From the NCBI GenBank assembly GCA_947304245.1, contig CAMZAK010000001.1, forward strand, positions 1 to 64,000: a stretch of DNA of 64,000 bases. Reading direction: 5' to 3'. The position numbers and the translations under genes are program-made. Shown piece after piece: positions 7,522 to 32,528 of the stretch. This stretch comes from an uncultured Clostridia bacterium (GTDB lineage Bacteria > Bacillota > Clostridia > Oscillospirales > Ruminococcaceae). Every line of letters starts with the position of its first letter. Position 1 is the first letter of the stretch. The notes under the pieces were generated by a model. The model was not told the DNA's origin. It was given only the letters and a program-made list of their open reading frames with translations, and ran no database searches.

Positions 7522-7551
7522 AATATTCTCCTTTTTTCTAAATTTTCCATA

Positions 7552-7580
7552 ATATTACAATATTTCCCATTTTTTGTCAA
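7552..7580 (-). promoter_or_regulatory. Array promoter of the gene at 5638
   Basis: On the minus strand, TTGACA at 7575-7580 and TAATAT at 7552-7557 with a 17-bp spacer beginning AAAAATGGGAAATATTG. It directly follows the palindromic terminator of the preceding gene. Confidence 0.75.
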
Positions 7581-7587
7581 ATAAAAA

Positions 7588-7615
7588 AACATATGAAAAA
7601 TTATTTCCATATGTT
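7588..7615 (-). terminator. Array palindrome, terminator of the gene at 7685
   Basis: AACATATG and CATATGTT stems with further A/T pairs inside. Same element as at 2025. It sits between the stop of the gene at 7685 and the promoter of the next gene. Confidence 0.7.
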
Positions 7616-7684
7616 CTTGATTTTAATTAAATGTTAATTAAATTTTTAATGTAAAACTTTAGATTTATTTTATTAATTTTTAAA

Positions 7685-9477: not shown

Positions 9478-9481
9478 ATAA

Positions 9482-9616: not shown

Positions 9617-11377
9617 TCATTTTTTAGAAAACACATTTTTAGTTAAATAACATAAATATTTATTTAATGAACTGTGAAAGTTGCTAATGTCAGCTTTCAC
9701 TTTTTCAAAAGCTTTTAATTCTTCAGTAATTCTTCTGTCTGCTTCATTTATTATTGCTATTTCTTCTTCAGTAAATTCATATAATTTATCATGATTTTTT
9801 ACTACATATGCTAAAACTACAACTTTATTGTAAAATTCATCATTTCCATATTCAAATAAACAAGCCATAGCATTTAAAAGTTTTTCATAATATTTAAAAT
9901 TAATTTTTTTTGATTCCTCTTTTTCTTGTACATTATTTTTTAAATAATAGTCTCTTTCAAGTATCGCTTGACGTTTAGGGAATTGATAAGCATATTGTAG
10001 TTTATCCCTTAAAAATATTCCTTTCGTTATTTTTCCGTTTCTAATAAGATTTTTTGCTCTATTTAAAATAAATTCAAACCTTTCTACAAAATTGTTAAAT
10101 TTAGCATATGCATATACTGAATTTTTAAAATTAAAGTTTTTTGCAATTTCTGAAAAATCTTTTTCGAAGATTTTTCCTATTGAGTTTAAATTGTTTTCTA
10201 ATATTACATATTCAACCAAATAATTATCAGTATTGTTATTAAATAAACTTTTGAGTTCATTTTTAAATTCTTCTATTAATTTTGGAACTATTTTAGAATT
10301 ATTAAAACCATGTTTGGCATCCATAAGAGTTTCTAGTGCAAATGGTACCTTTTTTCTTCTTTCATAATTAATTTTATTTTCTTTGGGGAGTTCATTAATT
10401 TTTTTTAATTTAATTTCATAAAAACTTCTCAATGTATTTAACATATCATATAGGCATTGAATTCCAAAGTATTTATTTCTGTTATTATCTATTCTTTTGT
10501 TAATGTTTAATTCATAATATTCTGCTAATATGTGAAATGGTTCAATTGTGTAATTAAAGAAATTAAAACAATCTAATAATTTTTTTAACATCGTGTTCTC
10601 TTTAGATGTTAAATTCTCTTCATTGTTTTCTTTTTTGTAAAGTTCTCTTTTAATTGAAAGTTGCTCCAAAATGTTTTTTAAATTACTATTATCTCTCATT
10701 TGTTTACATTGAGCATTTAAAAATTCTTTTATTTTTAGAAAAAGCCCTTCGTTTTCATTTTTTAATTCTTCAAGCTGTTGGTTTATGGTAGTGTTTTGAG
10801 TTTGCACAACTTTTTGTTTTGGTTTTATTTTCTCATTAATGTTAGATTCTATTTTATTAATCATACTTTCTTTTTTACTTTTTTCACAACCAATTTTATT
10901 TTCTTTAATGTAAAATTCATAAAAACTCAATAACTCAATTAATTTTTCATATGTTTTACTAATTGTGATTTTTCTAATTCCAAAAATTTCAAAATAATTA
11001 TTTCTTTCTATGTTAATGTTCAATTCATAATCTTCTGCTATTATGTGAAATGGTTTAATACTATGTTTATTTATGTGATTAAAACAATCTAATAATTCTT
11101 TTAACATCTCGTTTTCTTTAGATGCTAAATTAACTTCATTGTTTTTTTCTTTGTAAGCTGAGTAAGCTGCTCTTTTAATTGAAAGTTGCTCTAAAATGTT
11201 TTTTAAATCACTATTGTCTCTCATTTGTTTACATTGAGCATTTAAAAATTCTGTTATTTTTAGAAAAAGCTCTTTGTTTTCATTTTTTAATTCTTCAAGC
11301 TGTTGGTTTATGGTAGTGTTTTGAGTTTGCACAACTTTTTGTTTTGGTTTTATTTTCTCATTAATGTTAGATTCCAT
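9617..11377 (-). CDS. Array paralog with two leader-plus-A units and module E, 586 residues
   Basis: I chose the ATG at 11377, with AGGAAG nine bases upstream; the frame's earlier start (11407) is poorly placed. Residues 1-20 are the leader (NINEKIKPKQKVVQTQN) and module A spans 25-157. A second complete leader recurs at 177-196, followed by a second A module to about 340. Module E (about 350-586) is shared with the gene at 11638 (LMDAKHGFNNS, FSEIAKNFNFKNS, YAKFNNFVERF, ITEELKAFEKVKADIS). The two leader blocks are identical over about 65 bases (10787-10850 and 11301-11366), so the duplication is recent. No membrane segments. Confidence 0.88.
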   Translation of the reverse strand: MESNINEKIKPKQKVVQTQNTTINQQLEELKNENKELFLKITEFLNAQCKQMRDNSDLKNILEQLSIKRAAYSAYKEKNNEVNLASKENEMLKELLDCFNHINKHSIKPFHIIAEDYELNINIERNNYFEIFGIRKITISKTYEKLIELLSFYEFYIKENKIGCEKSKKESMINKIESNINEKIKPKQKVVQTQNTTINQQLEELKNENEGLFLKIKEFLNAQCKQMRDNSNLKNILEQLSIKRELYKKENNEENLTSKENTMLKKLLDCFNFFNYTIEPFHILAEYYELNINKRIDNNRNKYFGIQCLYDMLNTLRSFYEIKLKKINELPKENKINYERRKKVPFALETLMDAKHGFNNSKIVPKLIEEFKNELKSLFNNNTDNYLVEYVILENNLNSIGKIFEKDFSEIAKNFNFKNSVYAYAKFNNFVERFEFILNRAKNLIRNGKITKGIFLRDKLQYAYQFPKRQAILERDYYLKNNVQEKEESKKINFKYYEKLLNAMACLFEYGNDEFYNKVVVLAYVVKNHDKLYEFTEEEIAIINEADRRITEELKAFEKVKADISNFHSSLNKYLCYLTKNVFSKK

Positions 11378-11449
11378 TTTTTTTCTTCCTTTCTTTTTGT
11401 AAAACATAATATTTTGAATTTTAATGGTTATCTTTTATTTTTTTATATA

Positions 11450-11478
11450 ACTATATATAAATTTACATTTTTTGTAAA
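11450..11478 (-). promoter_or_regulatory. Array promoter of the gene at 9617
   Basis: On the minus strand, TTTACA (11473-11478), 17-bp spacer starting AAAAATGTAAA, TATAGT (11450-11455). Confidence 0.65.
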
Positions 11479-11483
11479 ATAAA

Positions 11484-11514
11484 AAAACATATGAAAAATT
11501 TCTTCATATGTTTT
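11484..11514 (-). terminator. Array palindrome, terminator of the gene at 11638
   Basis: AAAACATATGAA and TCATATGTTTT form the same hairpin as at 2025. It lies about 125 bp past the stop of the gene at 11638. Confidence 0.7.
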
Positions 11515-11583
11515 TAATTTTAATTAAATGCTAAAATATTATTTTAATGTAAATTTAGAAAACATTAATACAATTTGGAATTA

Positions 11584-11605
11584 ATATATATATATATATA
11601 TATAT
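11584..11605. repeat. (AT)11 dinucleotide tract
   Basis: 22 bases of perfect alternating AT in the 3' untranslated stretch of the gene at 11638. The matching stretch after the gene at 9617 (about 9550-9615) has similar flanks but no tract. Confidence 0.85.
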
Positions 11606-11637
11606 TTACTTCATATAATGCTTTAGATTTAGTTTAT

Positions 11638-12918
11638 TTATAGATCATTATAGCCAGCATTTTCAGAAAACACATTTTGATTTAAATAACATAAATAATT
11701 ATATAATGAATTTTTGAATTTGCTAATGTCAGCTTTCAATTCTTTAAAAGTTTTTAATTCTTCAGTAATTCTTTTGTCTACTTCATCTATTATTGCTTTT
11801 TCTTTTTCAGAAAATTCATATAATCCAGCATGATTTCTTACTAAATCTGCTAAATCTAAAACTTTATCATAAAGTTCATCATATCCATATCCAGGTAAAA
11901 AATCATAAATAATATATATAAGTTTTTTATAATATTCAAAATCAATTTTTATTAATTTTTCTTCAGAAACAATTGGTTTTTTTAAGTTATCTTCATTATA
12001 TTTTAAACTGTATACCTCTTTTTCATTTTCACTTATTGCTTCATTCTTATAATATAAATATCCTTCTTTTTTTCTATTTCTTAAAAATATCCCTTTTTTT
12101 ATTTTTCCACTTTTAATCAAATTTTTTGCTTTATTTAAAACATCTTTAAACCTTTCTACAAAATTGTTTAATTTAGTATATGAATATATTGAATTTTTAA
12201 AATCAAAGTTCTTTGCAATATTTGAAAAACCAAAATAAAAATCACTTTGTATTTCATTTAACTCTTTTGCTAAGCTTATGTATTCTTCCTTTTCATACAT
12301 ACGAATATTTTTATAATTAATATAAAAAAGATTTTTAAGCTCATCTTTAAATTTTTCTATTAATTCTGGAACTATGTTAGAATTGTTAAACCCATGTTCG
12401 GCATCCATAAGAGTTTTAAGTGCCACTGTTACTTTTTTTCTTCTTTCATAATCTATTTTTTTTAATTTAAATTCATAAATATCTAGCAATTCATTTAATT
12501 TTTCATATATCTTACTAATTTTATTATAATTATCTCCTTCTTTTTTAATGTTTAATTCATAATTTCCTGCTAATATGTGAAACGGTTCATTACTAGATTT
12601 ATGTAGAGAATTTAAATCATCTAATAATTCTTTTAACTTATCATTTTCTTTATACGTTATGTGTGATTTATTTATCATATCTAATTTGTTTTTTTTATCT
12701 TTATAAAGTGCTCTTTTAATTGAAAGTTGCTCTAAAATGTTTTTTAAATTACTATTGTCTCTCATTTGTTTACATTGAGCATTTAAAATATCTGTTATTT
12801 TTAGAAAAAGCTGTTCGTTTTCATATTCTAATTTTTCAAGCTGTTGGTTTATAGCAGTGTTTTGAGTTTGCACAACCTCCTGTTTTGGCTTTAAGTTTTC
12901 ATTAATGTTAGATTCCAT
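11638..12918 (-). CDS. Array paralog with one A module and module E, 426 residues
   Basis: The ATG at 12918, preceded by AAAGGAAAT, is taken as start because it begins the leader (NINENLKPKQEVVQTQN). The frame's upstream ATG at 12978 lies just after the promoter and lacks a binding site. Module A spans about 25-160 (LFLKITDILNAQCKQMRDN, FHILAGNYELN, LNELLDIYEFK). Module E spans about 170-426 and is a clear homologue of the C-terminal half of the gene at 9617. It may be the single-unit ancestor from which the double-unit neighbour arose. Soluble, no signal peptide. Confidence 0.88.
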   Translation of the reverse strand: MESNINENLKPKQEVVQTQNTAINQQLEKLEYENEQLFLKITDILNAQCKQMRDNSNLKNILEQLSIKRALYKDKKNKLDMINKSHITYKENDKLKELLDDLNSLHKSSNEPFHILAGNYELNIKKEGDNYNKISKIYEKLNELLDIYEFKLKKIDYERRKKVTVALKTLMDAEHGFNNSNIVPELIEKFKDELKNLFYINYKNIRMYEKEEYISLAKELNEIQSDFYFGFSNIAKNFDFKNSIYSYTKLNNFVERFKDVLNKAKNLIKSGKIKKGIFLRNRKKEGYLYYKNEAISENEKEVYSLKYNEDNLKKPIVSEEKLIKIDFEYYKKLIYIIYDFLPGYGYDELYDKVLDLADLVRNHAGLYEFSEKEKAIIDEVDKRITEELKTFKELKADISKFKNSLYNYLCYLNQNVFSENAGYNDL

Positions 12919-13987: not shown

Positions 13988-16768
13988 TTGAAAATTTCAT
14001 CTTTATTTAAAATTTTTTCAGATAAAGAAGATAATTTTAAAAAAGAAAAAACTAAAAAAGAAAAAACTAAAAAAGAAAAAAAATTAGCTAGTTATGAAAT
14101 GCCTAGCATTGTTAATTCTTCATTTAATGGGCTTAATTTTAAAGAAGCTAAAAAAATTTTAAAAAAACAAGGTGAAAATACAATAAAGTCTCAAAACAAC
14201 ATTTCTGCTGTTAAAATTTTTGCTGGGCAATTTAAAGATTTTTTGGTTTTAATTCTTTTAGTTGCAACAATTATTTCAATTTTCATGGGAGAATTAATTG
14301 AGGCGGTTTCCATTTCAACAATACTTTTTTTAAACGCTATTATGGGGTTTATTCAGGAATATAAAACCGAAAAAACTCTAGAAGCATTAGATGAAATGGT
14401 TACCCCTAATGCTTGTGTTATTAGAGACGGCAAAATGTTTAATATCCCTGCCAACAAACTAGTTGAAAAAGACATAATATTTGTTAAAATGGGAGACACT
14501 GTTCCTGCTGACGCTGTTATTTTAAAAAGCAATAATCTTGAAGTGGATGAATCTATTTTAACCGGAGAATCTGTTGCTGTTACTAAAGAAAAAGATGATG
14601 GTTTAAATGAAGAAAACGAGTTAAACAAGAAAAATATTGTTTACATGGGAACCGCTGTTGTTAAAGGGCAGTGTGTTGCAAAAATTGTGGCAACCGGTTT
14701 GAAAACGCAAATGGGCAAAATTGCAGACATGCTAGAAAAAATAAAAAAAGAACAAACACCACTTCAAAAAAAGTTAAGCCAGATGGGGAAAATTATGGTT
14801 TTTGGTTGTTTGTTGGTTTGTTTTACTGTAATTTTTATTGGAATTTTAAGAGGGGAAGAAGTTTTAGAAATGGTTATGGTTGGCCTTTCTTTGGCTGTTG
14901 CTTCTGTTCCTGAAGGGCTTCCCGCTATTGTTACAATAGCTCTTGCTTTTGCAGTAAAACACATGATTAAAAGAAAAGCTCTGGTTAGAAAACTGCACGC
15001 TGTGGAAACTTTAGGGTGTGCTAACGTAATATGCACAGACAAAACAGGCACAATAACCCAAAACAATATGACGGTTAAAAACATTGTTACTGCGAATTTT
15101 AATTTTAATGTAACCGGGCAAGGTTTAAAAAAAGAAGGGAACATTTCTTTAAATAATAAAACGGTTATTTTAAATAAATTTCCTTTTTTGGAAAAAATTT
15201 TAACTACTGCGGTTGTTTGTAATTCTTCTTTAATTTTCACTTCAAAAAAAGATGAAAATTCTTTTGAGTTTTCAGGGGAACCTTTAGAAGCAGCACTTTT
15301 GGTTGCTGCTAGTAAAGCAGAAATTAGTAAAAAAGATGTTGAGTTTAAAGTTTTTGATGAAATACCTTTTAATTCATCTAAAAAATTTATGACCGTTTTT
15401 GCAAAGTCTGAAGAAGGAGAAAATTTTGTTTTTGTTAAAGGAGCCTACGACATAATTTCAAAAAGGTGTGAATTTTATGAAGAAGAAGAGTTGGTTTCTT
15501 TTAAAGAGGTTAAAGAAATTTTTAATGAAAAACATAAAATTTTTTCTAAATGCGGAATGCGTGTTATTGCCTTTGCTTACAAAAAATTAAATGATTTTAA
15601 AACAGCAGAGCAAGGCTTAACATTTTTAGGGCTTTGTGCAATGATGGACCCACCAAGAAAAGAAGCAAAAAATTCTGTTAGGTTGTGTAAACATGCTGGA
15701 ATTAAAACAGTTATGATTACAGGAGACAACAAATTTACTGCAAGAGCTATTGCAAAAGAGGTTGGAATTTTTAAAGAAGGAGACTATTGCTTAGAAGGAA
15801 AAGAAGTTGAAGAAATGGAGGAAGCTGAATTAAGGCAAATTGTTAAAAAAACAACTGTTTTTGCAAGAGTTTCCCCTAAACATAAACTAAAAATTGTTAG
15901 AGCTTTTAAAAAAAATGGCAATGTTGTTGCAATGACGGGGGACGGCGTTAATGATGCTCCTGCAATTAAAGAAGCAGACATTGGGGTTTCCATGGGGAAA
16001 ACAGGGAGTGAGGTTACAAAAGAGGCAGCAGACATTGTTCTTTTGGATGACGATTTTTCAACTTTGGTTGCCGCAGTTGAAGAAGGCAGAACAATTTACA
16101 ACAATATTAGAAAATTTATGAGATATCTTCTTTCTTGCAACTTAGGAGAAGTTTTAACTTCTCTTTTTGCAATATTAATGGGGATGCCAATTCCTTTGCT
16201 TCCTATGCAAATTCTTTTAATTAATTTGGTAACAGATTGTTTGCCTGCAATTGCTTTAGGTTTAGAGCCTAAAGAGAAAAAAATTATGGAAAAACCTCCA
16301 AGAAAAACTGAAGAAAACATTTTTTCAAAAGGTTTGATGTTTACAATAGTTGTTAGAGGATTTTTAATTGCATTAACAACCTTAACTGTTTTTACTGTGA
16401 TTTTTAAATTAACTCTTTCAATAGATTTATCACGCAGTGCAACATTTTTAACATTAGTTAGTTTGCAGTTAATTCATGTTTTTGAGTGCAAAAGCGAAAC
16501 AAAATCTATTTTTAAAATAAACCATTTAAACAATAAGAAACTTCTTTTTGCAGTTTTAATTTCTTTTGTTATTGCAATTTCTGCTGTTTGGGTTAGCCCT
16601 TTTAACAAAATAATTAAAAACTATCCTTTAAATTTTAATCATACTTTAATTGTAATTTTTTTCACAGTTTTAGTGCCATTCATTAACGCCATTATTTTAA
16701 ACTTTAAAAATTATGTAAGAAGAAAAAGAAGGTATGAAAAAATTTTAAAATTTAATTATGTAAATTAA
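13988..16768 (+). CDS. Calcium-type P-type ATPase (P2 family), 926 residues
   Basis: This is an ATP-driven cation pump in the membrane, of the PacL/SERCA-like Ca2+ type. It has a TTG start with GGAGG seven bases upstream. Seen in order: a Lys/Glu-rich N-terminus with KEKTK repeats; the first membrane pair (about 85-125); the actuator TGES (192-195); M4 with PEGLP (308-312); the phosphorylation site DKTGT (351-355); TGDGVNDAP in the P domain; M5-M6 with N-x-x-T-D-x-x-P-A; and four further C-terminal helices. The PEGLP and NxxTD motifs are those of Ca2+ rather than heavy-metal pumps; Mn2+ or another ion cannot be excluded. Full length and intact. It stands alone between the two arms of the array and is less AT-rich than its neighbours. 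A link to the array is not shown. Confidence 0.95.
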   Translation: MKISSLFKIFSDKEDNFKKEKTKKEKTKKEKKLASYEMPSIVNSSFNGLNFKEAKKILKKQGENTIKSQNNISAVKIFAGQFKDFLVLILLVATIISIFMGELIEAVSISTILFLNAIMGFIQEYKTEKTLEALDEMVTPNACVIRDGKMFNIPANKLVEKDIIFVKMGDTVPADAVILKSNNLEVDESILTGESVAVTKEKDDGLNEENELNKKNIVYMGTAVVKGQCVAKIVATGLKTQMGKIADMLEKIKKEQTPLQKKLSQMGKIMVFGCLLVCFTVIFIGILRGEEVLEMVMVGLSLAVASVPEGLPAIVTIALAFAVKHMIKRKALVRKLHAVETLGCANVICTDKTGTITQNNMTVKNIVTANFNFNVTGQGLKKEGNISLNNKTVILNKFPFLEKILTTAVVCNSSLIFTSKKDENSFEFSGEPLEAALLVAASKAEISKKDVEFKVFDEIPFNSSKKFMTVFAKSEEGENFVFVKGAYDIISKRCEFYEEEELVSFKEVKEIFNEKHKIFSKCGMRVIAFAYKKLNDFKTAEQGLTFLGLCAMMDPPRKEAKNSVRLCKHAGIKTVMITGDNKFTARAIAKEVGIFKEGDYCLEGKEVEEMEEAELRQIVKKTTVFARVSPKHKLKIVRAFKKNGNVVAMTGDGVNDAPAIKEADIGVSMGKTGSEVTKEAADIVLLDDDFSTLVAAVEEGRTIYNNIRKFMRYLLSCNLGEVLTSLFAILMGMPIPLLPMQILLINLVTDCLPAIALGLEPKEKKIMEKPPRKTEENIFSKGLMFTIVVRGFLIALTTLTVFTVIFKLTLSIDLSRSATFLTLVSLQLIHVFECKSETKSIFKINHLNNKKLLFAVLISFVIAISAVWVSPFNKIIKNYPLNFNHTLIVIFFTVLVPFINAIILNFKNYVRRKRRYEKILKFNYVN

Positions 16769-17161: not shown

Positions 17162-17201
17162 ATTGTTAAATATTTTACAAAACAAAGGAGAGCAAAAAAA
17201 T

Positions 17202-19379
17202 ATGATTAACAATATTAACAATAGCAATAATTATAATTCAATAACTGTACAACAAGAAATAACAACAAATGGAGAAGAAGTAAAAGAAATAAAGAAAAGA
17301 AATAGTGAATTATATTATAAAGCTTTTGATTGTTTATATGAAATATGTAAAAAATATCGTGAAACGGTGTTAATTAAAAATAAGAAGCCTTCATTGTTAG
17401 TTGCACTTTATAAAATAATAGTTGCTGACAAAAAGGAATATGACAAAAATGTTTTAAACATTGAAACTTTAGAAAAAGAATTTGAATTATTACAAAAAAT
17501 ATGGATTATTTTAACTGAAATAAACAATGAAACGTTTCTTAAAAATTTAGAAACATATGAATTAAACCGTAAATTAAAATGTTTAGATGACAAATATGAT
17601 GAACATAAAAAAAATGAATTTATTAAATTTAAAGAATTATGTATAGAATTAATTGATTTGTTTGACTTTTATAAGGAAAATAAAATTAATGATTTTGGTT
17701 ATATAAAAAAGATGTACGACAAATTTGCTAGAGTTGACAATTATTTCAATATATTTACGAATTGCTTAAAAAAACTTGTAGATTGCAGAACATCGGAAGA
17801 TTTTTCGTGGTTTAATAGAATAGTAAATAATGAAGAAAACAAGAAAGATAAAAATGATGAAAATAAAGAAATTGAAATTTATGAAACTCGTAAGATTAAG
17901 AAAAAAGATAGAAAAAAAGCATCTTATTTACTTTTATATATGGAATTAAAGATGAGGAGGAATGTTTTTAGAAAATTATTAGACTATGTAAAAGATTTAA
18001 ATTATTTAGAAGAGATTGTGAAAAAAGAAGAAAAAATTTTAAAAAGATTATTTGGATATTTAGAAAATTTAGTTAGAAAATTAAATATTCCTAATTGTAT
18101 GATTGAAGGAAATGGGCTATCTGCATTAGATTTTGATCTTAATCATGAGTTTGACAATCTTTATAATGCAGAATCTAAAGACAGTGATCCTGTAAAATTT
18201 AAATATATGGTTTGCGATGTTATTAATAATTTCTACAGAAAAGAGATTAGAAATATAGAAAACAAAATAGGGAAAAAAAATGAAGAAATGAATGCAGAAA
18301 AATACGGAAAAGATGAAAAAGAGGAAGAAAAATTAAAAGAAACATATGAAAATTTAGCTAAAGAAAATAAAGCATACTACGATTTTATTTTCCGTTTAGT
18401 TTTTGATGCAATAAACGAAAAAATGTTAAATTTAGATATATTTAATAATGATTGTGAAGTTAATTATAAATATGAAATGCAAAAATTTTATAATTTGCAA
18501 AATATGCTTAGAACAGTTTATAAATTTATTAAAAATTTCACCGAAGAATCCATTGAAAAATCTCGTGTAAAATATTATAAAGATATTATTTATTGTTTAA
18601 AAAATGAAAGAGCAATGTTGCGTAAAATTTACGATTTTATTATGAGCTATGTTCCAGAATTAAAAGATAAAGAAAAATTTATTAATAAATTTATTAATGT
18701 AGATTTTGAAAAACTTAGTGAAAAAGAAAAAGCAGAAATTAAAAATGAAAAAGAAGAAATTAAAAATAGTTTTAAAAAAGCTTTTTTAGATGAAATTGAA
18801 AAAATTAAAGACCCAATTGTTATAAGAGATGATTTATGGCAATTAAATAATAAGGGTTTTCCTGTTTTAGGTATTACTGATATATTTGATGAGGAATTTA
18901 ATGAGGACTCTAGAAAGAGTTCTATTAAACCGAATGGAGATTTTTTTGGTGACATTAAATATACTTCGGTTTCTCTTCCTAAAATAAGTAAGATAAGAGA
19001 TATTAATTTTAATTCAGTTTTTAATGAAATAGAAAGTGTAGTTGATGAATATGGCTATTTAAAGCAAAACAACACAATAAATGATGAGGAGCCTGAAAGC
19101 AATGAAGAAATTTTAAGAAAATTAGAAAAATGTTATACATATTTTTCTAATGAAGGGTCAATAAATGTTAGTGATTTTAAATTACTTAAAAAATTATTGG
19201 AAGAATACCGAGATTTAGTTAATAATTCTAAAAATCAACCCGAATCTAACAATAAAGATTCTATTTTAAATAAATTATATAAAATTTTAAATGAAACAAT
19301 AAATTTTTATTTTGATGAAAAAAACGGAAAATTTTTTATTTATGACATTTTTTATAGAATAAAACCTAAAAAAAGTTAA
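17202..19379 (+). CDS. Array paralog with modules A, B, C and D, 725 residues
   Basis: Start ATG at 17202 with AAAGGAG upstream; the frame's earlier start at 17103 lies in the terminator. The N-terminus (INNINNSNNYNSITVQQEI) is a divergent leader. Module A spans about 28-160. Module B (about 165-345) has RVDNYFNIF, IEIYETRKIKKKDR, VKDLNYLEE, YLENLVRKLNI and DPVKFKYMV. Module C (about 385-545) has KFYNLQNM, YLKNERAMLRKIYDFIM and KDPIVIRDDL. Module D (about 598-715) has NFNSVFNEIESVVDEYG and LYKILNETINFYF. Four long DNA blocks are identical to the gene at 21630, separated by diverged segments. It is the most complete module order in the array. Function unknown. Confidence 0.9.
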   Translation: MINNINNSNNYNSITVQQEITTNGEEVKEIKKRNSELYYKAFDCLYEICKKYRETVLIKNKKPSLLVALYKIIVADKKEYDKNVLNIETLEKEFELLQKIWIILTEINNETFLKNLETYELNRKLKCLDDKYDEHKKNEFIKFKELCIELIDLFDFYKENKINDFGYIKKMYDKFARVDNYFNIFTNCLKKLVDCRTSEDFSWFNRIVNNEENKKDKNDENKEIEIYETRKIKKKDRKKASYLLLYMELKMRRNVFRKLLDYVKDLNYLEEIVKKEEKILKRLFGYLENLVRKLNIPNCMIEGNGLSALDFDLNHEFDNLYNAESKDSDPVKFKYMVCDVINNFYRKEIRNIENKIGKKNEEMNAEKYGKDEKEEEKLKETYENLAKENKAYYDFIFRLVFDAINEKMLNLDIFNNDCEVNYKYEMQKFYNLQNMLRTVYKFIKNFTEESIEKSRVKYYKDIIYCLKNERAMLRKIYDFIMSYVPELKDKEKFINKFINVDFEKLSEKEKAEIKNEKEEIKNSFKKAFLDEIEKIKDPIVIRDDLWQLNNKGFPVLGITDIFDEEFNEDSRKSSIKPNGDFFGDIKYTSVSLPKISKIRDINFNSVFNEIESVVDEYGYLKQNNTINDEEPESNEEILRKLEKCYTYFSNEGSINVSDFKLLKKLLEEYRDLVNNSKNQPESNNKDSILNKLYKILNETINFYFDEKNGKFFIYDIFYRIKPKKS

Positions 19380-19401
19380 ACTAAGAATTAAATTTTTAAT
19401 T

Positions 19402-19434
19402 AAAACATATGAAATTAATTTTTCATATGTTTTT
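19402..19434 (+). terminator. Array palindrome, terminator of the gene at 17202
   Basis: Perfect AAAACATATGAAA / TTTCATATGTTTT stem with loop TTAATT, 23 bp after the stop codon. Confidence 0.8.
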
Positions 19435-19447
19435 ATTGTTTTTTTAT

Positions 19448-19476
19448 TTGACAAAAAATGTAAAAATTTGTATAAT
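19448..19476 (+). promoter_or_regulatory. Array promoter of the gene at 19512
   Basis: Consensus TTGACA, 17-bp spacer AAAAATGTAAAAATTTG, TATAAT. This is the best sigma-A match of the set. Confidence 0.85.
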
Positions 19477-19511
19477 GATTATAATATTATGCAAAAAAAG
19501 GAGAGTAAAAT

Positions 19512-21497
19512 ATGATTAATAATACTAATGAAAACTTTAATGATGGTGTTAATAGCATTTTAATACAACCATTACAACCAGAAAGATTAATAAAAAGTGA
19601 AGAAGAAAAATTAGAACAGTCAACTAATGAGTTATATAAAAAAATTATTGATTTTTTAGAAACGTCTTTAAACCCATCTCTTAAAAAAGAAGATTCTAAA
19701 GAGTTTTTTAAAATTAATAAGAATTTAAAATTAATTTTAAATGAAATAAAATTTAATAAGAGTGAATATGATGGGTATGCTTTAAAACTTGAAGATTTAA
19801 AACAAGAATTAGAATTACTACAAAAAATATGGAATATTTTACTTGAAATAAACATCAATACATTTCTTGAAGAATTAAAAGAATATGAATTAAACCCCAA
19901 TTCAAATAAAAAAATTCGAGAACTATGTGAAGAATTGGAAAATTTATTAACATTTTATAAAAAAAACATAAATTATAAAGCAAATGAAATTAATATAGAA
20001 AATGAAAAAAATAAAGAAAATAAAAACTTTAATAATCACAAAGATATAAGAAAGGTATACGAAGAATTAATTAGAGTTGACGGTTATTTTAATAAATTAA
20101 TTAAGAGCTTACGAAAAATGGCAACATTTAGAATATCACAAGACATATGGTCAACTAATGGAACAATAGAGGATGAAGGAAATGAAAACAAAGAAATTGA
20201 AATTTATGGATCTCATAAAATTATGAAAAAAGATAAAGTGTTTAGGATTTTTTTAGACGTATACATGGAACTAAAGAAAAACAGAGGTGTTTTTAGAAAA
20301 TTATTAGATCATGTAAAAGATTTAAATTATTTAGAAGAAGTTGTGAAAAAAGAAGAAAATTTTTTAAAATATATATTTTCTTATTTAGAAAACATTGTTA
20401 GGTTTTTAAATGTTAATAATAATGATCAATATTATGGAAATTTTAATTTAAGTATTTTAAACCTTAACAATGATTTTTATAAATATTATCGTCCATATTC
20501 TCCAGATAGTTACATTGTAAAATTTAAGTATGTTGTTTATGATGTTATTAAAAAATTTTATTTTAAAGAAATTAAAAATATAGAAAATAAAATAGGAAAA
20601 AAAATAGAAAAATTAGACGAAAAAGAATGTGTGAGAGATGAAAAAGAGGAAGAAGAATTAAAAGAAATATATAAAAATTTAGCTAAAGAAAATGATGCAT
20701 ACTACAATTTTATTTTTCGTGTAGTTTTTGATTCAATAAACAAAGAAATATTAAATTTAAATATATTTAATAATCGTTGTAAAGTTAATTATAAATATGA
20801 AATGCAAAAATTTTATAATTTACAAAATATGTGTGGAACACTTTTTAAAGTTAGTAGTGATTTTATTAAAAATTTAGTTAAATCTAATCCTGTAAAATAT
20901 TATAAAGATATTATTTATTGCTTAGAAAACGAAAAAGCAATGTTGCGTGAAATTTACGACTTTATTATGAGCTATGTTCCAGAATTAAAAGATAAAGAAA
21001 AATTTATTAATGTAGATTTTGAAAAATTTAGTGAAAAAGAAAAAGCAGAAATTAAAAAAGAAAAAGAAAAAATTAAAAATAGTTTTAAAAAAGCTTTTTC
21101 AGAAGAAATTGAAAAAATTAAAGACCCAGTTGTTATAAGAGATGATTTTGAAAAACTTAGCAGTTCATTTCCTGCAATTACTGAAAAATTTTATGAAGAT
21201 GAAGATGATGAATATGGTGAAAATTTTTATATGTTTACTACCTTTATTTGTGATAAAGCTAAGATAGAAGATACTAATTTCAATTCAATTTTCAATAAAA
21301 TAAATAGTTTAGTTGATAAATATGGTAATTTAAAACAAAACAAAACAAAAAATAATGAAGCAGTAAAAGACGATTCTTTTTTAGGTAGATTATATAAACT
21401 TTTAAACAAAACAATAAAATTTTACTTTAATGAAAAAAACGGAAAATTTTATTTTTATGAAACTTTTAATAGATTATCTAACCAATTTTTAAAGTAA
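19512..21497 (+). CDS. Array paralog with modules A, B, C and D, 661 residues
   Basis: ATG with AAAGGAGAG upstream. The leader region (NTNENFNDGVNSILIQPLQPE) keeps N-x-N-E-N but has lost the K-x-E-I-V core. Module A spans about 30-150 (LLQKIWNILLEIN, FLEELKEYELN). Module B (about 170-355) contains RVDGYFNKL, EIYGSHKIMKKDK, VKDLNYLEE and YLENIVRFLNV. Module C spans about 380-555 and shares long DNA stretches with the genes at 17202 and 21630 (YKDIIYCLENEKAMLREIYD). Module D is at about 580-655. It sits between those two closely related genes and is clearly more diverged than they are from each other. Confidence 0.9.
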   Translation: MINNTNENFNDGVNSILIQPLQPERLIKSEEEKLEQSTNELYKKIIDFLETSLNPSLKKEDSKEFFKINKNLKLILNEIKFNKSEYDGYALKLEDLKQELELLQKIWNILLEININTFLEELKEYELNPNSNKKIRELCEELENLLTFYKKNINYKANEINIENEKNKENKNFNNHKDIRKVYEELIRVDGYFNKLIKSLRKMATFRISQDIWSTNGTIEDEGNENKEIEIYGSHKIMKKDKVFRIFLDVYMELKKNRGVFRKLLDHVKDLNYLEEVVKKEENFLKYIFSYLENIVRFLNVNNNDQYYGNFNLSILNLNNDFYKYYRPYSPDSYIVKFKYVVYDVIKKFYFKEIKNIENKIGKKIEKLDEKECVRDEKEEEELKEIYKNLAKENDAYYNFIFRVVFDSINKEILNLNIFNNRCKVNYKYEMQKFYNLQNMCGTLFKVSSDFIKNLVKSNPVKYYKDIIYCLENEKAMLREIYDFIMSYVPELKDKEKFINVDFEKFSEKEKAEIKKEKEKIKNSFKKAFSEEIEKIKDPVVIRDDFEKLSSSFPAITEKFYEDEDDEYGENFYMFTTFICDKAKIEDTNFNSIFNKINSLVDKYGNLKQNKTKNNEAVKDDSFLGRLYKLLNKTIKFYFNEKNGKFYFYETFNRLSNQFLK

Positions 21498-21514
21498 GAA
21501 ATAAATTTTTAATA

Positions 21515-21548
21515 AAAACATATGAAATCAATTTTTCATATGTTTTTT
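21515..21548 (+). terminator. Array palindrome, terminator of the gene at 19512
   Basis: AAAACATATGAAA / TTTCATATGTTTT stem with loop TCAATT and a T-tract, 18 bp after the stop. Confidence 0.8.
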
Positions 21549-21561
21549 TATTGTTTTTTGT

Positions 21562-21590
21562 TTGACAAAAAATGTAGAAAATTGTACTAT
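21562..21590 (+). promoter_or_regulatory. Array promoter of the gene at 21630
   Basis: TTGACA, 17-bp spacer AAAAATGTAGAAAATTG, TACTAT. Confidence 0.75.
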
Positions 21591-21629
21591 AATTATAACA
21601 TTTTATAAAACAAAGGAGAGTAAAAAAAT

Positions 21630-23777
21630 ATGATTAACAATATTAACAATAGCAATAATTATAATTCAATAACTGTACAACAAGAAATAACAACAAATGG
21701 AGAAGAAGTAAAAGAAATAAAGAAAAGAAATAGTGAATTATATTATAAAGCTTTTGATTGTTTATATGAAATATGTAAAAAATATCGTGAAACGGTGTTA
21801 ATTAAAAATAAGAAGCCTTCATTGTTAGTTGCACTTTATAAAATAATAGTTGCTGACAAAAAGGAATATGACAAAAATGTTTTAAACATTGAAACTTTAG
21901 AAAAAGAATTTGAATTATTACAAAAAATATGGATTATTTTAACTGAAATAAACAATGAAACGTTTCTTAAAAATTTAGAAATATATGAATTAAACCGTAA
22001 ATTAGATTGTGTAGAAAATAAGTATTCAAACGATGAATTTATTAAATTCAAAAAATTATGTGATGAATTACACAATTTATTAAAATTTTATAAGGAAAAT
22101 AAAATTAATTATTCTAGTGATGTAAAAAGGATTTACAACAAATTAGGTAGAGTTGATAATTATTATAATATTTTCATGAAGAACTTACGCGAATTTGCAA
22201 ACTGTAGAATAACGGAAGATTTACGGAGAATTGATGAAATAAAAAATAATGAAAAAAACAAGAAAAATAAAAATAATGAAAAAAACAAGAACGATAAAAA
22301 TGATGAAAATAAAGAAATTGAAATTTATGAAACTCGTAAGATTAAGAAAAAAGATAGAAAAAAAGCATCTTATTTACTTTTATATATGGAATTAAAGATG
22401 AGGAGGAATGTTTTTAGAAAATTATTAGACTATGTAAAAGATTTAAATTATTTAGAAGAGATTGTGAAAAAAGAAGAAAAAATTTTAAAAAGATTATTTG
22501 GATATTTAGAAAATTTAGTTAGAAAATTAAATATTCCTAATTGTATGATTGAAGGAAATGGGCTATCTGCATTAGATTTTGATCTTAATCATGAGTTTGA
22601 CAATCTTTATAATGCAGAATCTAAAGACAGTGATCCTGTAAAATTTAAATATATGGTTTACGATGTTATTGATAATTTCTACATAAAAGAGATTAAAAAT
22701 ATAGAAAACAAAATAGGGAAAAAAAATGAAGAAATAAATGCAGAAAAATATGGAAAAAATGAAAAAGAGGAAGAAAAATTAAAAGAAACATATAAAAATT
22801 TAGCTAAAGAAAATGAAGCATACTACGATTTTATTTTCAATTTAGTTTTTGATGCAATAAAAAAAGAAATAAAAGATTTAGAAATATTTGATGATGATTA
22901 TGAAGCTGATTATAAATATGAAATGCAAAAATTTTATAATTTGCAAAATATGCTTAGAACAGTTTATAAATTTATTAAAAATTTCACCGAAGAATCCATT
23001 GAAAAATCTCGTGTAAAATATTATAAAGATATTATTTATTGTTTAAAAAATGAAAGAGCAATGTTGCGTAAAATTTACGATTTTATTATGAGCTATGTTC
23101 CAGAATTAAAAGATAAAGAAAAATTTATTAATAAATTTATTAATGTAGATTTTGAAAAACTTAGTGAAAAAGAAAAAAAAGAAATTCAAAAAGAAAAAGA
23201 TGAAATTAAAAATAGTTTTAAAAAAGCTTTTTTAGAAGAAATTAAAAAAATTAAAGACCCAATTGTTATAAGAGATGATTTATGGCAATTAATTAGTGAC
23301 GGATTTCCTTTTTTAGATGAGGACTTTAGAAAGAGTTCTATTAAACCGAATGGATATTTTTTTGGTGACATTAAATATTCTGGGTTTACTTTTCCTAAAA
23401 TAAGTAAGATGAATGATATTAATTTTAATTCGGTTTTTAATAAAATAGAAAGTGTAGTTGATAAATATGGTAATTTAAAAGAGAATAGCACAATAAATGA
23501 TGAGCCTGAAAGCAATGAAGAAATTTTAAGAAAATTAGAAAAGTATTATTATTATCTTTTAGAAAAAGTAGATGTTAGTCATGATACGCGTGAAACTATT
23601 TATAAATTGGTGGAAGAATACCGTGATTTAGTTAAAAACTCTAAAAATCAACCCGAATCTAACAATAAAGATTCTATTTTAAATAAATTATATAAAATTT
23701 TAAATGAAACAATAAATTTTTATTTTGATGAAAAAAACGGAAAATTTTTTATTTATGACATTTTTTATAGAATATAA
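21630..23777 (+). CDS. Array paralog with modules A-D, near-copy of the gene at 17202, 715 residues
   Basis: ATG with AAAGGAG upstream. The first 352 coding bases are identical to those of the gene at 17202, as are about 360 bases over module B (22290-22650), about 265 over module C (22908-23173) and about 135 at the 3' end. Between these blocks the sequence is clearly diverged: the end of module A with the front of B (residues about 118-225), the B-C link, and the start of D. The acidic/Asn-Lys linker before EIEIYETRK is longer here (an extra NNEKNKN-type repeat). The pattern fits gene conversion rather than plain duplication followed by drift. Function unknown. Confidence 0.9.
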   Translation: MINNINNSNNYNSITVQQEITTNGEEVKEIKKRNSELYYKAFDCLYEICKKYRETVLIKNKKPSLLVALYKIIVADKKEYDKNVLNIETLEKEFELLQKIWIILTEINNETFLKNLEIYELNRKLDCVENKYSNDEFIKFKKLCDELHNLLKFYKENKINYSSDVKRIYNKLGRVDNYYNIFMKNLREFANCRITEDLRRIDEIKNNEKNKKNKNNEKNKNDKNDENKEIEIYETRKIKKKDRKKASYLLLYMELKMRRNVFRKLLDYVKDLNYLEEIVKKEEKILKRLFGYLENLVRKLNIPNCMIEGNGLSALDFDLNHEFDNLYNAESKDSDPVKFKYMVYDVIDNFYIKEIKNIENKIGKKNEEINAEKYGKNEKEEEKLKETYKNLAKENEAYYDFIFNLVFDAIKKEIKDLEIFDDDYEADYKYEMQKFYNLQNMLRTVYKFIKNFTEESIEKSRVKYYKDIIYCLKNERAMLRKIYDFIMSYVPELKDKEKFINKFINVDFEKLSEKEKKEIQKEKDEIKNSFKKAFLEEIKKIKDPIVIRDDLWQLISDGFPFLDEDFRKSSIKPNGYFFGDIKYSGFTFPKISKMNDINFNSVFNKIESVVDKYGNLKENSTINDEPESNEEILRKLEKYYYYLLEKVDVSHDTRETIYKLVEEYRDLVKNSKNQPESNNKDSILNKLYKILNETINFYFDEKNGKFFIYDIFYRI

Positions 23778-23825
23778 CTAATAACAATTACTAAGTAATT
23801 TAAATTTAGAGTTAAATTTTTAATT

Positions 23826-23860: not shown

Positions 23861-23862
23861 AT

Positions 23863-23927: not shown

Positions 23928-25577
23928 ATGATTAACAACATTAATGAAAATTTAAAGCCAAAACCAGCAATAGTGCAAAATCAAGATAACGAACAATTTA
24001 AAGAAACTAAAAAAGAGGAAAAAGAAAACCAAAATAAAATATCTTTTAGTATTAGTAATAGTAGTGGAAACAATAGTGAGAAAATTGAAACCATAAACAT
24101 AAACAAAGAAAAAGAAAAATTAAACCAAATAATTTTTAATGAAGAAATAATAACAAAAAAATTTAGTGAACCTGAAAAAAATTTTAATATTTACGAAGAA
24201 GTGAGAAAAATATATGATGAATTAAATGAAGTTGACAAATATTATAACTATTTTATTAATTGTTTACGTAATGTTGCTCAATATAAAATTTTAGATGATG
24301 AAACCTTAAATTCAGAAAATATTAATTTTAATAGTAACAATAGCAAGAAAATTAAAGTTTATGCGGATTATGAGATTTTAAAAAAACATAGAATATATGC
24401 CACTTTTTTTAAAATTTATATTGAATTTAAAAGAAAAAGAGAAAAATTTAGAAATCTGTTAGATTACGTAAAAGATTTAAAATATTTAGAAAAAACAATA
24501 AAAGAAGAAAAAGAAATTTTAAAATATTTATTTGGTTATTTAGAAAACCTTGTTAGATGTTATAATATAGATAACTCAAAGAATGGTGGTGGAGTTAGTT
24601 TAGAATATTTTAACCCTAATAATGAATTTTATTGTGGTGAACATTATGACTCAAAATGTGAAGATGCTTACCCTGTAAAATTTAAATATGATGTTTATGA
24701 TGCTATTAAAAATTTTTATGATGTGGAGATTAAAAATTTAGAAGAAAATTTGGTGGGAAACAAAAATTTAAATTTAGAAAACATAGATGAAAAAATGGGT
24801 TTAGAAAAAGAGAGAGAATTATATTATGAGTATGAAACATTATTTAAAAAAAATGATTTATATTATAAATTCATAGCTTATTTAAATTTTGATGCAATAT
24901 TTAGGAGATTAGAGCTTTTAAGGCAATTATTTAATGAAATAGATTATGAAATTAATTTTAAAAATGAGGAAGAAAAATTTCATAAGTTGCAATTTATGTT
25001 TAGAAAACTTAGAAATCATATTAGATTATTATTTCAAAACATATCTAAATCGGACGAGATGATTTATTATTTAAAAAATGAAGAAGGAATGTTGCGTAAA
25101 ATTTACGATTTAATTATATATTTTTTGCCAGATTACCTAAAAGAAAGAGATGAATTTGTTAATGCAGAAATTGAAAAATTCAATGATGAAGAATTGAAAA
25201 AAATTAAAAAGCATTTTAGAATGTCTGTTTTAAGAGAAATTGTGCGAGTTAAGGATGAAACTGTTCCGTTTAAAAAAATGTATAATTATTTTGGAAAAAA
25301 ATTTCCTTTAATTTTTAGAGATTACAAATGGGAAAATAGTAACAAAAAAGCTATAAGCATATCTCTTGATGGTGTGATTGATGATGTTAATTTTAATTCA
25401 GTTTTTGAAAAAATAGATAATTTGGTTGATGAATACGGCAATTTAAAACAACCCGTAATAAAACAAAACAAAACTGAAAACAAAGATTCTATTTTGGGTA
25501 GGTTATATAAAAATTTAAATGCAATTATAGAACTTTATTTATATGGCATTGTTAAATTTTATGAAAGGTTAAAATAA
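23928..25577 (+). CDS. Array paralog with modules B, C and D, 549 residues
   Basis: ATG with GGGAGGG upstream. Canonical leader NINENLKPKPAIVQNQ, then a Ser/Asn/Lys-rich linker (about 25-85) that includes NQNKISF, a weak relative of the ENPNKIVF motif of the left arm. There is no module A. Module B (about 88-270) has EVDKYYNYF, KHRIYATFFKIYIEFKRKR, VKDLKYLEK, YLENLVRCYNI and YPVKFKYDVYDAIKNFY. Module C is at about 300-460 (KFHKLQFMFRKL, YLKNEEGMLRKIYDLI) and module D at about 485-540. Its 5' region is the template of the remnant at 2125. Confidence 0.9.
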   Translation: MINNINENLKPKPAIVQNQDNEQFKETKKEEKENQNKISFSISNSSGNNSEKIETININKEKEKLNQIIFNEEIITKKFSEPEKNFNIYEEVRKIYDELNEVDKYYNYFINCLRNVAQYKILDDETLNSENINFNSNNSKKIKVYADYEILKKHRIYATFFKIYIEFKRKREKFRNLLDYVKDLKYLEKTIKEEKEILKYLFGYLENLVRCYNIDNSKNGGGVSLEYFNPNNEFYCGEHYDSKCEDAYPVKFKYDVYDAIKNFYDVEIKNLEENLVGNKNLNLENIDEKMGLEKERELYYEYETLFKKNDLYYKFIAYLNFDAIFRRLELLRQLFNEIDYEINFKNEEEKFHKLQFMFRKLRNHIRLLFQNISKSDEMIYYLKNEEGMLRKIYDLIIYFLPDYLKERDEFVNAEIEKFNDEELKKIKKHFRMSVLREIVRVKDETVPFKKMYNYFGKKFPLIFRDYKWENSNKKAISISLDGVIDDVNFNSVFEKIDNLVDEYGNLKQPVIKQNKTENKDSILGRLYKNLNAIIELYLYGIVKFYERLK

Positions 25578-28431: not shown

Positions 28432-30690
28432 ATGAATAATAATATTAATTTTAGTGAAGAATTAAAACCAGAAAAAGCAATAGTAGAACAACAAAAAGAA
28501 CAAAAAGAAATTAACAAAGAAAATATTAATAAAAAATATGAAGGCATTTATTTTGATCCTAGAGATTTAACATTAAGCGAAGAGAATGATTTAAGTTTAA
28601 TACCAAAAAAAGACTTAGTTGAATATGAAAAAGCAAAAAACGAGTTTGATAGGAAAAATGAAAATATAAATTTGTTTTTTACTTTAATGGAACGTTTAAA
28701 TGTTGAATGTGAAAAAATGCGGAAGAATAAAATTTTAAAAAAAATTTTGTTTAAACTACTTGTTAAAAGACAAGAATTTATGTTTTATGTTTTAAAAAAA
28801 GAATTTCTTATGTATAGTTTTGAAAAAGAAGCAAATTTACTAAAAGAAATAGAAGGTCTTTTAAACAGTTTTAATTCACAATTTTTTAAATTCGCAGAAA
28901 TTTATGAATCAGGGCAAAAATTAGATGATGAATGTTTTAAGCGTGTTAAAGATTTATATAGTAAATTAGAAGATTTAACAAAATTTTATGTGGAAGATAA
29001 TCTTTTTAAATCCGCAAAGTTTTATAGATTTGATGTAAGGTTAGGCGATGAATGTTCTCTGCATGTTAAAGATTTATATAATAAATTAGAAGATTTACCA
29101 AAATTTTATGGAGAAGATTGTAATCGCGAAATAAAAAGCAAAATGGAATTTTTAGAGAAAGCAGGTAATAACACCAATTACTATTTAAATTACAAATTAT
29201 TAAAAGGATATATAATATCAAGAATAGAAGAAGTTGATGAATATTATGAATTTTTTATGGATTGTTTTTATAAAATTGCTGAATATTTAGATGGTTTTTC
29301 TTTTGAAAAACCTAAAAATTTTATTAATAAAAATGGTGATGAGCCAATTACTATTTTTAAAGATATAAAAGTAAAAAAGAAAAATTTAAAATATATATCT
29401 TTTATGGATCTTTATTTAAAGTTATATAACAAAAGAAATTTTTTTAGAAGAGTATTAGCAAAATGTTACAGATTGCATCTTGATGTTAAGGATCGTGAAC
29501 TTAGTAATAGAGAATATATTTTTTATATATATGATTTAGTATTAAAAGAAAAACAAAACTTAAAATATTTGTTTTCTTATTTGGAAAATCTTGTGAGATA
29601 TTATAATTTAGGTAATGTAAAAAATTTTAGAAATAAATTAAATTTAGAAAAACAATTCAACCTAAATAATGAATTTAATGAAAAATATGACCCAGATTCT
29701 GAAGAATCTTACCCTGTTGAATTTAAATATAATGTTTACAGCATAGCAGAAGGATTTTATGAAAAAAATTCTAAACAATTGATGGAATATTTTTTTGACA
29801 TTAATCTACGTAAACCAAGAGGAAATGTAGGTGTATTAGTTGATGAATATACAAATGTATATGAATATTTAGATTGGAGAAAAATGCACTTTTTTATGTA
29901 TAAGGATAAGATATTAAATACAAAAGAGGAATTTATAGATGGTTTAAAAGATGCGTCTAAAAATGAGAGAAATTCATCATGCTTTAAGTTTCTTAAAGAA
30001 GTTTTTAAAAATTTAGAAGACGAAATGAAAAAAGGAGATTATTCAAAAAATTATGGATATAAAAAACTTAAAGGTTTAATAAACACCCTATTGTTTATGG
30101 AAACCTATGAGTATGGTGATTTTGAATTTGGAGATAAAAATAAAAGAATGTTAGAAGAAGATATACTAAGAGCAAGGAGATTTTTTCAGTTTTTTGATGA
30201 TAAGAACGAAAAAAATAAAGAATTATGTGATTTTCTTTTAAAATATTCAAAAGACAAAGAAAATGTTTTAAAAAATTCTTCAAAAGAAATTGCAGAATTT
30301 TTTTCTAATGAATTAAAAAATGAATTGAAAAAAGTTAAAAATGAGCCGGTTAAAGGTAGAAATTTGTTAACTGGTAGATCTACAGATTACCCCACAATGT
30401 TTAATAAAGACAAATTTGCCATAGACTTTAGTGAAGATGTTGATCGTTATATTACAAATCATCTTAATAACGGAAAAGAAGTTACGGTGGAAGATTCGAA
30501 TTTTAATGAAATATATGAAAAAATAGAAAGTTTGGTGGACAAAGAGGGAAATTTAAAACGAGATTTTGTAAATGTTGAATATAGTAAATATCATAGTGAG
30601 GCTTTAAATGAATTGAGTGAAAAATTAAGTGAACTAATAAAATTTTTAATAGAAGGAATTAATCTTTACAGATCACTTAAAAAATCATAA
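28432..30690 (+). CDS. Array paralog with A, partial A, B, C and D, 752 residues
   Basis: ATG with GGAAAGG-type site upstream. Leader variant FSEELKPEKAIVEQQ. It resembles the gene at 25720 from its residue 165 onward, as if that gene's first A module were missing. Module A is at about 68-185. Its last 40 residues are repeated once more (about 187-228: FDVRLGDECSLHVKDLYNKLEDL), a tandem copy. Module B is at about 262-450 and module D at about 689-752. The B-C link (about 455-505, EYFFDINLRKPRGNVG...) has no visible match to the corresponding segment of 25720 although both flanks are similar, so this link is a variable site. Confidence 0.9.
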   Translation: MNNNINFSEELKPEKAIVEQQKEQKEINKENINKKYEGIYFDPRDLTLSEENDLSLIPKKDLVEYEKAKNEFDRKNENINLFFTLMERLNVECEKMRKNKILKKILFKLLVKRQEFMFYVLKKEFLMYSFEKEANLLKEIEGLLNSFNSQFFKFAEIYESGQKLDDECFKRVKDLYSKLEDLTKFYVEDNLFKSAKFYRFDVRLGDECSLHVKDLYNKLEDLPKFYGEDCNREIKSKMEFLEKAGNNTNYYLNYKLLKGYIISRIEEVDEYYEFFMDCFYKIAEYLDGFSFEKPKNFINKNGDEPITIFKDIKVKKKNLKYISFMDLYLKLYNKRNFFRRVLAKCYRLHLDVKDRELSNREYIFYIYDLVLKEKQNLKYLFSYLENLVRYYNLGNVKNFRNKLNLEKQFNLNNEFNEKYDPDSEESYPVEFKYNVYSIAEGFYEKNSKQLMEYFFDINLRKPRGNVGVLVDEYTNVYEYLDWRKMHFFMYKDKILNTKEEFIDGLKDASKNERNSSCFKFLKEVFKNLEDEMKKGDYSKNYGYKKLKGLINTLLFMETYEYGDFEFGDKNKRMLEEDILRARRFFQFFDDKNEKNKELCDFLLKYSKDKENVLKNSSKEIAEFFSNELKNELKKVKNEPVKGRNLLTGRSTDYPTMFNKDKFAIDFSEDVDRYITNHLNNGKEVTVEDSNFNEIYEKIESLVDKEGNLKRDFVNVEYSKYHSEALNELSEKLSELIKFLIEGINLYRSLKKS
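28883..29121. repeat. Tandem copy of about 120 bp inside module A
   Basis: 28883-29000 and 29004-29121 code two copies of the end of module A (F-K-x-A-x-x-Y ... D-E-C ... V-K-D-L-Y-x-K-L-E-D-L-x-K-F-Y). The length preserves the frame. The copies are diverged, so the event is not very recent. Confidence 0.7.
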
Positions 30691-30833: not shown

Positions 30834-32492
30834 ATGAACAATTTAAATGAAAATTTGGAACCAGTAAAAGAAATAGTGCAAAATCAAAATATTGTTGAAA
30901 ATCAACAGATTGAAGAATTAAAAAGAGAAAATGAGGGTATTTTTAAAGATATTATAAATGAATATTTATCTGAACAATGTAAAAAGATGAAAAAAAAATA
31001 TATTATGCAAAATCTTTTAGAAAATATTAAAATTTTGAAAGAGAAGAATTATGAAATTTATTTTAAAAATGATATTTCAAAAGAAGCAGAATATGTTTTA
31101 AAAAAAGAAGGGATTTTGCTAAAAGAATTAAAAGATTTTATTTTAAGTTACTTAAAAATTTTGAGGGGAGATAACATTTTTAAAATTGCAGAAAAATATG
31201 AATCTAAAGAATTTAAGGAACAAGAAAGATCAGATTATGAGTTTGTTGATGAATTATATAGAAAACTAAAAAATTTACAAGGATTTTATGAATTTGTTTT
31301 AGAATATTTTAAAGATTATGAAAAAGAAGATATTTTAAAAAATAGAGAGATGTTTGAAAAAGAATTTGTAAATAAAATTAAAAAAGAAAAATTAAAAGTT
31401 GAGCCACTTAACACAATTAAAGAAGAAGATTTTAATAATAATAACAATATTGTTGAAGATGGTGAAAATGTTTTTTTATATGGTGAAGAAGAAGATTATG
31501 ATGAAAGTTGGGAGAATTTAAATAAACTTTTTGTGGAAGCAGAAAATAAATTATTAGACGTAGAAGGTTATGGTGATGCTTTTACGAATAGTCTTTTCGA
31601 TTTTGTTAAATATTTTTACGATTCTTATAAAGTTAATGTAAAACCAAACCAAAACAAAGAGGAAGAAGTTAACGTTTATGCAAAACATAATATTAAAAGA
31701 AAAGATATGAAAAATGATGATTTTTTGAGAATGTATATAGAATTAAAAAAAGAACTAAAAAGTTTAGGAAAAATTATGCAAAAACAAATTGAAAGAGTTA
31801 AAAAAAACATTGAAATAAAATCTCGCTATGAATATAATTTAGATAGATTAAATTATGTAATTGACACTTTAAATAAAGAAAAGGAAAAATTAAAATATCT
31901 ATTTTCTTACTTAGAAAACTTAGTAAAATTAATTAATTTACATAACATTAAAGATTCTAAAAATAAGATAGATTTTAAAGAACATTTTAATTTAAATAAT
32001 GAATTTAAAGATTCATTTAACCCAAATTCTGAGGAAGCGTTTCTTGTAAAATTTAAATATGATCTTTATGATGTTATGGATTTTTGTCGTATAGAAGTTG
32101 AAAAAATTGCGGAAATGTTAACAAAAAATAATTCTAGAATTGAAAAATATAAAGAGATTAAAGTACGTGTTAGAAATTATAAAACTAATGTAGTTGAATA
32201 TAAAAAAGTAAGAGCCAAAAATCTTATAATTCAAACAATTGAGAGAAATATTAATCAAATTAACAAATTGTATATTACAGAAATTGAGCCTATATTAAAA
32301 AAGCTGGCATCTGAATTTAAAGATAATTTAGATTCTAAAAAATTAATTAATTTAATTAGAATTTTATTTGAACTTATAAATTTAAAAAAATCTTATATTA
32401 ATAGTTGTTTTTTATCTGCATTTAAAAATGCACAAACAGAGCAGGTTGAAGGTGTTTTGAAAATAAAAACTCCATATGAAAATTTGCCATAA
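30834..32492 (+). CDS. N-terminal part of the split paralog (leader, A, B), 552 residues
   Basis: ATG; upstream AAGGATGG. Leader NLNENLEPVKEIVQNQN. Module A is at about 25-155 (IEELKRENEG, FKIAEKYESKEFKEQ, LYRKLKNLQGFYE), an acidic Asn/Glu link at about 185-222, and module B at about 225-430 (KRKDMKNDDFLRMYIELKKEL, YLFSYLENLVKLINL, NNEFK, FLVKFKYDLYDVMDFC). The first part of module C runs to the stop. Translation of this part is expected from the intact start region. Confidence 0.8.
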   Translation: MNNLNENLEPVKEIVQNQNIVENQQIEELKRENEGIFKDIINEYLSEQCKKMKKKYIMQNLLENIKILKEKNYEIYFKNDISKEAEYVLKKEGILLKELKDFILSYLKILRGDNIFKIAEKYESKEFKEQERSDYEFVDELYRKLKNLQGFYEFVLEYFKDYEKEDILKNREMFEKEFVNKIKKEKLKVEPLNTIKEEDFNNNNNIVEDGENVFLYGEEEDYDESWENLNKLFVEAENKLLDVEGYGDAFTNSLFDFVKYFYDSYKVNVKPNQNKEEEVNVYAKHNIKRKDMKNDDFLRMYIELKKELKSLGKIMQKQIERVKKNIEIKSRYEYNLDRLNYVIDTLNKEKEKLKYLFSYLENLVKLINLHNIKDSKNKIDFKEHFNLNNEFKDSFNPNSEEAFLVKFKYDLYDVMDFCRIEVEKIAEMLTKNNSRIEKYKEIKVRVRNYKTNVVEYKKVRAKNLIIQTIERNINQINKLYITEIEPILKKLASEFKDNLDSKKLINLIRILFELINLKKSYINSCFLSAFKNAQTEQVEGVLKIKTPYENLP

Positions 32493-32528
32493 AAATATGA
32501 AGAGGTTTTAGATCCTAAACTTTCAGAT

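Follow-up and report, generated by a model that had tools for sequence, protein, structure and literature searches.

Patchy identity between tandem paralogs of an orphan gene family in a reduced-genome clostridial bacterium probably reflects ectopic gene conversion

Introduction

In Mycobacterium tuberculosis, gene conversion between pe_pgrs27 and pe_pgrs28 has left two conversion tracts with 286 bp of unconverted target between them (PMC12046097). These genes belong to the multi-copy, lineage-expanded PE/PPE families, and the event, which was seen directly between strains by PacBio sequencing, is one of ordinary recombination without a dedicated system (PMC12046097). Mosaic identity among family members also arises via gene conversion in the cassette systems of antigenic variation, such as vlsE, pilE, msp2 and TprK (PMC4534519). 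Ehrlichia-type outer-membrane proteins, which are surface proteins, are encoded by tandem full-length paralogs and not by silent fragments (PMC4534519).

Here we describe a tandem gene family in a window of 64,000 nucleotides, the first part of contig C1 in the assembly of an uncultured clostridial gut bacterium. Two of its paralogs, A and B, alternate between exact identity and divergence. The array is likewise multi-copy and lineage-expanded, and it shares with pe_pgrs27/28 the discontinuous tracts with a few hundred bp of unconverted target between them; it differs in being known from one assembly, and its proteins are unrelated to those of M. tuberculosis.

The organism likely belongs to the wider small genome clade of the Acutalibacteraceae, judging from its best DnaE match and from the TLC ATP/ADP translocase of its genus-mates. 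Members of this clade, among them Ca. Improbicoccus, are described from termites as endosymbionts of protists and putative energy parasites, and are found as MAGs in ruminants and humans; the GC content of the clade is reported as 30-39%, and one member is described without an ATP/ADP translocase (PMC10579323). The likeness lies in a genome of 1.06 Mb, a nearest named DnaE (58%) in the rumen Ruminococcaceae MAG RUG11730, and the presence of the translocase in 5/7 congeners as against 0/14 control genomes. On the other hand, contig C1 has a GC content of only 26%, and the translocase has no match in the organism's own genome (G000) or in congeners G001 and G007, which suggests that a sublineage of this putative energy-parasite clade lost it (or never had it).

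Results

About 16 ORFs that belong to or resemble one family lie at 77-13822 and 17202-34517, with a P-type ATPase gene between the two groups. Most of the copies are full-length ORFs. The array and its anchors are as follows:

77-1963 (+), 2910-3860 (-), 3942-5237 (-): further array ORFs, weaker or partial homologs; contig C1 starts here
5638..9418, - strand: paralog pair 7685-9418 / 5638-7521, across the ATPase from A and B; N-terminal ~80 aa nearly identical, then diverged
9617..12918, - strand: paralog pair 9617-11377 / 11638-12918, array members
13988..16768, + strand: P-type ATPase, Ca2+-transporting type by sequence inspection; syntenic anchor in congeners
17202..19379, + strand: paralog A, 725 aa; predicted helical orphan protein without a Pfam, PHROG or NCBIfam family
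19512..21497, + strand: paralog C, 661 aa; more distant copy between A and B
21630..23777, + strand: paralog B, 715 aa; partner of A in the mosaic
23928..25577, + strand: paralog D, 549 aa
25720..28266, + strand: paralog E, 848 aa; mosaic with F
28432..30690, + strand: paralog F, 752 aa; mosaic with E
30834..33008, + strand: paralog H; N-terminal ~160 aa close to E, frame broken by one in-frame TAA at 32490-32492
34573..36201, - strand: amino-acid permease by sequence inspection; syntenic anchor that adjoins the ATPase in congeners

In paralog H, the same frame is still open 3' of the TAA. The members closest to A and B are all on contig C1, and sequence searches found no family member on any other contig of the assembly; the joined-contig analysis covers C1, while statements on the whole genome rest on genome searches. 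Searches at the level of genus, family and order, as well as a scan of genome contigs with paralog B, found no relative of the family outside its own genome. In congeners, the ATPase and the permease are neighbors, separated by 360 bp (G007) or 2.1 kb (G001), and neither gap holds a homolog of the family. Hence, the array is a lineage-specific insertion or expansion. The gap in G001 (locus L211, contig C29, 6956-9079) has a GC content of 15% and a single ORF at 8061-8720 on the - strand, whose N-terminus resembles a signal peptide.

Contig C1 carries several other repeats. Inside the window, an exact direct repeat of 238 bp (38257-38494 / 38557-38794) lies at the 3' end of and just past a peptidase-like gene (38549-39559). 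Outside the window are an exact direct repeat of 639 bp (128885-129523 / 131389-132027), an exact inverted repeat at about 141065 and 156614 with its arms about 15 kb apart, and, at the right end of the contig (185257-185617), a 102 bp tandem repeat that is the likely cause of the contig break.

To resolve the A/B mosaic, A (17202-19379), B (21630-23777) and C (19512-21497) were aligned three ways at the nucleotide level. Identical (I) and variable (V) blocks alternate, all on the + strand:

A 17194..17553 = B 21622-21981: identical block I1, 360 bp exact, 8 bp of them 5' of the ATG
A 17554..17846 vs B 21982-22292: variable block V1, 76.6% identity, with indels
A 17847..18213 = B 22293-22659: identical block I2, 367 bp exact
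A 18214..18462 vs B 22660-22908: variable block V2, 91.1% identity; 21 nonsynonymous differences and 1 synonymous
A 18463..18731 = B 22909-23177: identical block I3, 269 bp exact
A 18732..19226 vs B 23178-23639: variable block V3, 83.8% identity, with indels
A 19227..19361 = B 23640-23774: identical block I4, 135 bp exact

The initial annotation had listed four identical stretches (352, about 360, about 265 and about 135 bases), with lengths and positions that agree with these blocks to within a few bases, and a third, more distant paralog between the pair, which is C, whose protein is 55-56% identical to that of A or B. Its description of the intervening blocks as clearly diverged holds for V1 and V3, but not for V2 and the first ~115 bp of V3, where A and B differ only mildly.

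Could the identical blocks be the constrained parts of duplicates of equal age, with other regions free to change? Protein families do generally have conserved and variable regions. However, at codons that keep their amino acid, silent differences between A and B number 0/373 inside the identical blocks, compared with 17/224 inside the variable ones (Fisher p = 3.9e-8). Furthermore, the DNA of the I blocks is just 64-87% identical between A and C, so that these blocks are not merely conserved parts of the protein, and the same regions also differ strongly between E and F. Uneven purifying selection is thus refuted by the silent-site contrast (p = 4e-8), barring strong selection on the DNA itself, and we give it next to no weight. 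Models of uniform divergence and of selection only are ruled out by the same contrast; a uniform divergence along the pair was the outcome that the initial annotation had set against its own reading.

The recombination test that had been proposed at the same time was performed as a GENECONV-like permutation with 10,000 shuffles of polymorphic codons. Polymorphic codons at which A and B are equal form a run of up to 71 (p<1e-4). For silent sites alone, the longest equal run is 29 of 54 (p = 0.02), a modest result since the array region has a GC content of 20-24%, an AT bias so extreme that informative silent sites are scarce. Together with the silent-site contrast, these values support well the gene conversion that was initially suggested. 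RecA and RuvB are both present in the genome.

A different source of the pattern would be the assembly itself, in which bubble popping may have merged near-identical reads (turning 95-99% identity into 100%) or the variable blocks may have been given to the wrong copy. The assembly is a draft in 40 contigs, the repeats exceed typical short reads, and C1 starts inside the array. Nevertheless, merging smooths only stretches that are already near-identical and cannot make the contrast with blocks of 77-91% identity; the differences in V2 have been preserved; and both copies have unique flanks, with the ATPase beside A and paralog D beside B. On C1, the four exact runs are genuine features of the assembly. 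In addition, C1 passes through the 639 bp exact repeat, which shows that the assembler was able to resolve repeats of such size. We therefore regard an assembly effect as unlikely. It could bear on whether the identity is exact and on how the blocks are phased in cis, but not on the contrast between blocks.

Selection within the variable blocks was examined as well. V1 and V3 have changed at close to the neutral expectation (omega about 0.6-1.2), while V2 has an omega of about 3-6 (p 0.04-0.19). At 17-20% GC, however, NG86-type counts cannot be relied on, and selection can be mimicked by conversion. Positive selection is hinted at by V2 only, and the hint is suggestive rather than robust. There is also an excess of A-to-G changes, which is compatible with base composition.

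Patchy identity also marks other pairs of the array, namely E/F, 5638/7685 and the N-terminus of E/H, at positions that differ from those of A/B; silent-site support is not significant for E/F (p = 0.16) or 5638/7685 (p = 0.06). This patchiness at differing positions fits randomly placed conversion tracts and argues against the exchange of defined segments. The variable segments of A/B and E/F (25720/28432) do not coincide, and their identity profiles correlate at r = -0.22: amino acid identity in V1 is 55% for A/B and 91% for E/F, while in I1 it is 100% and 62%, respectively. No fixed variable regions of the protein were found in this comparison. Nor does the assembly contain a near-identical donor of V1-V3, or silent or partial copies that would supply these blocks.

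The copies may be expressed separately. For each of the ten copies checked, a sigma-70-like promoter lies upstream, which agrees with the consensus at 10-12 of 12 bases and in most cases has a 17 bp spacer, although promoter-like matches overall are no more common than in shuffles of the same AT-rich region. The site of C is as follows:

19448..19476, + strand: promoter-like site of C, a perfect TTGACA-17-TATAAT; related sites lie 5' of other copies

A Shine-Dalgarno-like sequence also precedes 10/10 copies, and an inverted repeat, CATATG...CATATG, precedes most of them. Such putative signals at each of the ten copies argue against a single expression site for the array.

The family proteins are large, rich in Lys, Glu and Asn, and predicted to be helical. 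Searches of Pfam, PHROGs, NCBIfam and PDB sequences for their function returned only chance-level matches. An AlphaFold2 model built from eight paralogs is mostly helical, at low confidence (mean pLDDT 64, pTM 0.34), and Foldseek with this low-confidence model found no match of E<1 in the PDB, so that we assign no fold to the family. By hydropathy, the proteins show no signal peptide or hydrophobic N-terminus, and no membrane-like segment of 19 residues.

These observations bear on the proposal, made at the outset, that cassette exchange varies defined segments as in antigenic variation. In a programmed system of this kind, conversion would alter the protein surfaces. The multi-copy array, the mosaic identity of A and B, the excess of amino acid changes in V2 and a lineage that is plausibly protist-dwelling (PMC10579323) all speak for it. 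On the other side, the variable segments of A/B and E/F lie at non-matching places, donors or silent cassettes are lacking from the assembly, promoter-like sites precede all ten copies checked, and the proteins carry no export or membrane signal. The array differs from the cassette systems (PMC4534519) in that no silent cassettes, export signal or fixed variable regions were found, and probably also in having no single expression site; the Ehrlichia-type paralogs (PMC4534519) match it in their tandem full-length copies, but they encode surface proteins. A diversity-generating retroelement was considered as well and rejected, as the genome has no match to the reverse transcriptase family PF00078. 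The claim of defined segments is not supported, and programmed diversification is very improbable.

Discussion

Taken together, our results are best accounted for by ordinary ectopic gene conversion among tandem, otherwise fast-diverging paralogs in a reduced-genome clostridial lineage, a reading to which we assign a probability of about 80%. From one draft assembly of one strain, we infer the direction, recency, number and age of the conversion events as well as their mechanism.

The sequence of events may have been as follows. A lineage-specific family would have grown through tandem duplications to the left and right of the P-type ATPase gene, and its copies would diverge quickly, with near-neutral or relaxed amino acid change in the variable blocks. 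Tracts of ~0.1-0.4 kb would occasionally be copied from paralog to paralog by homologous recombination of the RecA/RuvAB type. The sister copies A and B would have drifted about 10-25% apart before a recent re-homogenization over four tracts or, alternatively, in one or two longer discontinuous events. V2, with its 1 silent and 21 amino acid-changing differences, could have been converted at an earlier time and have since begun to diverge again. Hence, the recent feature of A and B would be their identity (homogenization) and not their variation.

A more speculative version, which we hold to be quite improbable, places a diversification array in a protist-dwelling clostridial parasite, where frequent segmental conversion among separately expressed tandem paralogs would go along with host-driven selection. 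Under this equally doubtful extension, paralogs without classical export signals would keep yielding new combinations.

With ordinary conversion as the preferred reading, the array clearly exemplifies patchy concerted evolution in a bacterium that is uncultured and has a reduced genome. It is also a large orphan gene family that, at about 30 kb in a genome of 1.06 Mb, presumably matters to its bearer. Our best guess for the proteins is a putative role as cytosolic or non-classically exported factors directed towards a protist host. If the lineage does live inside gut protists, the family proteins would be good candidates for host interaction.
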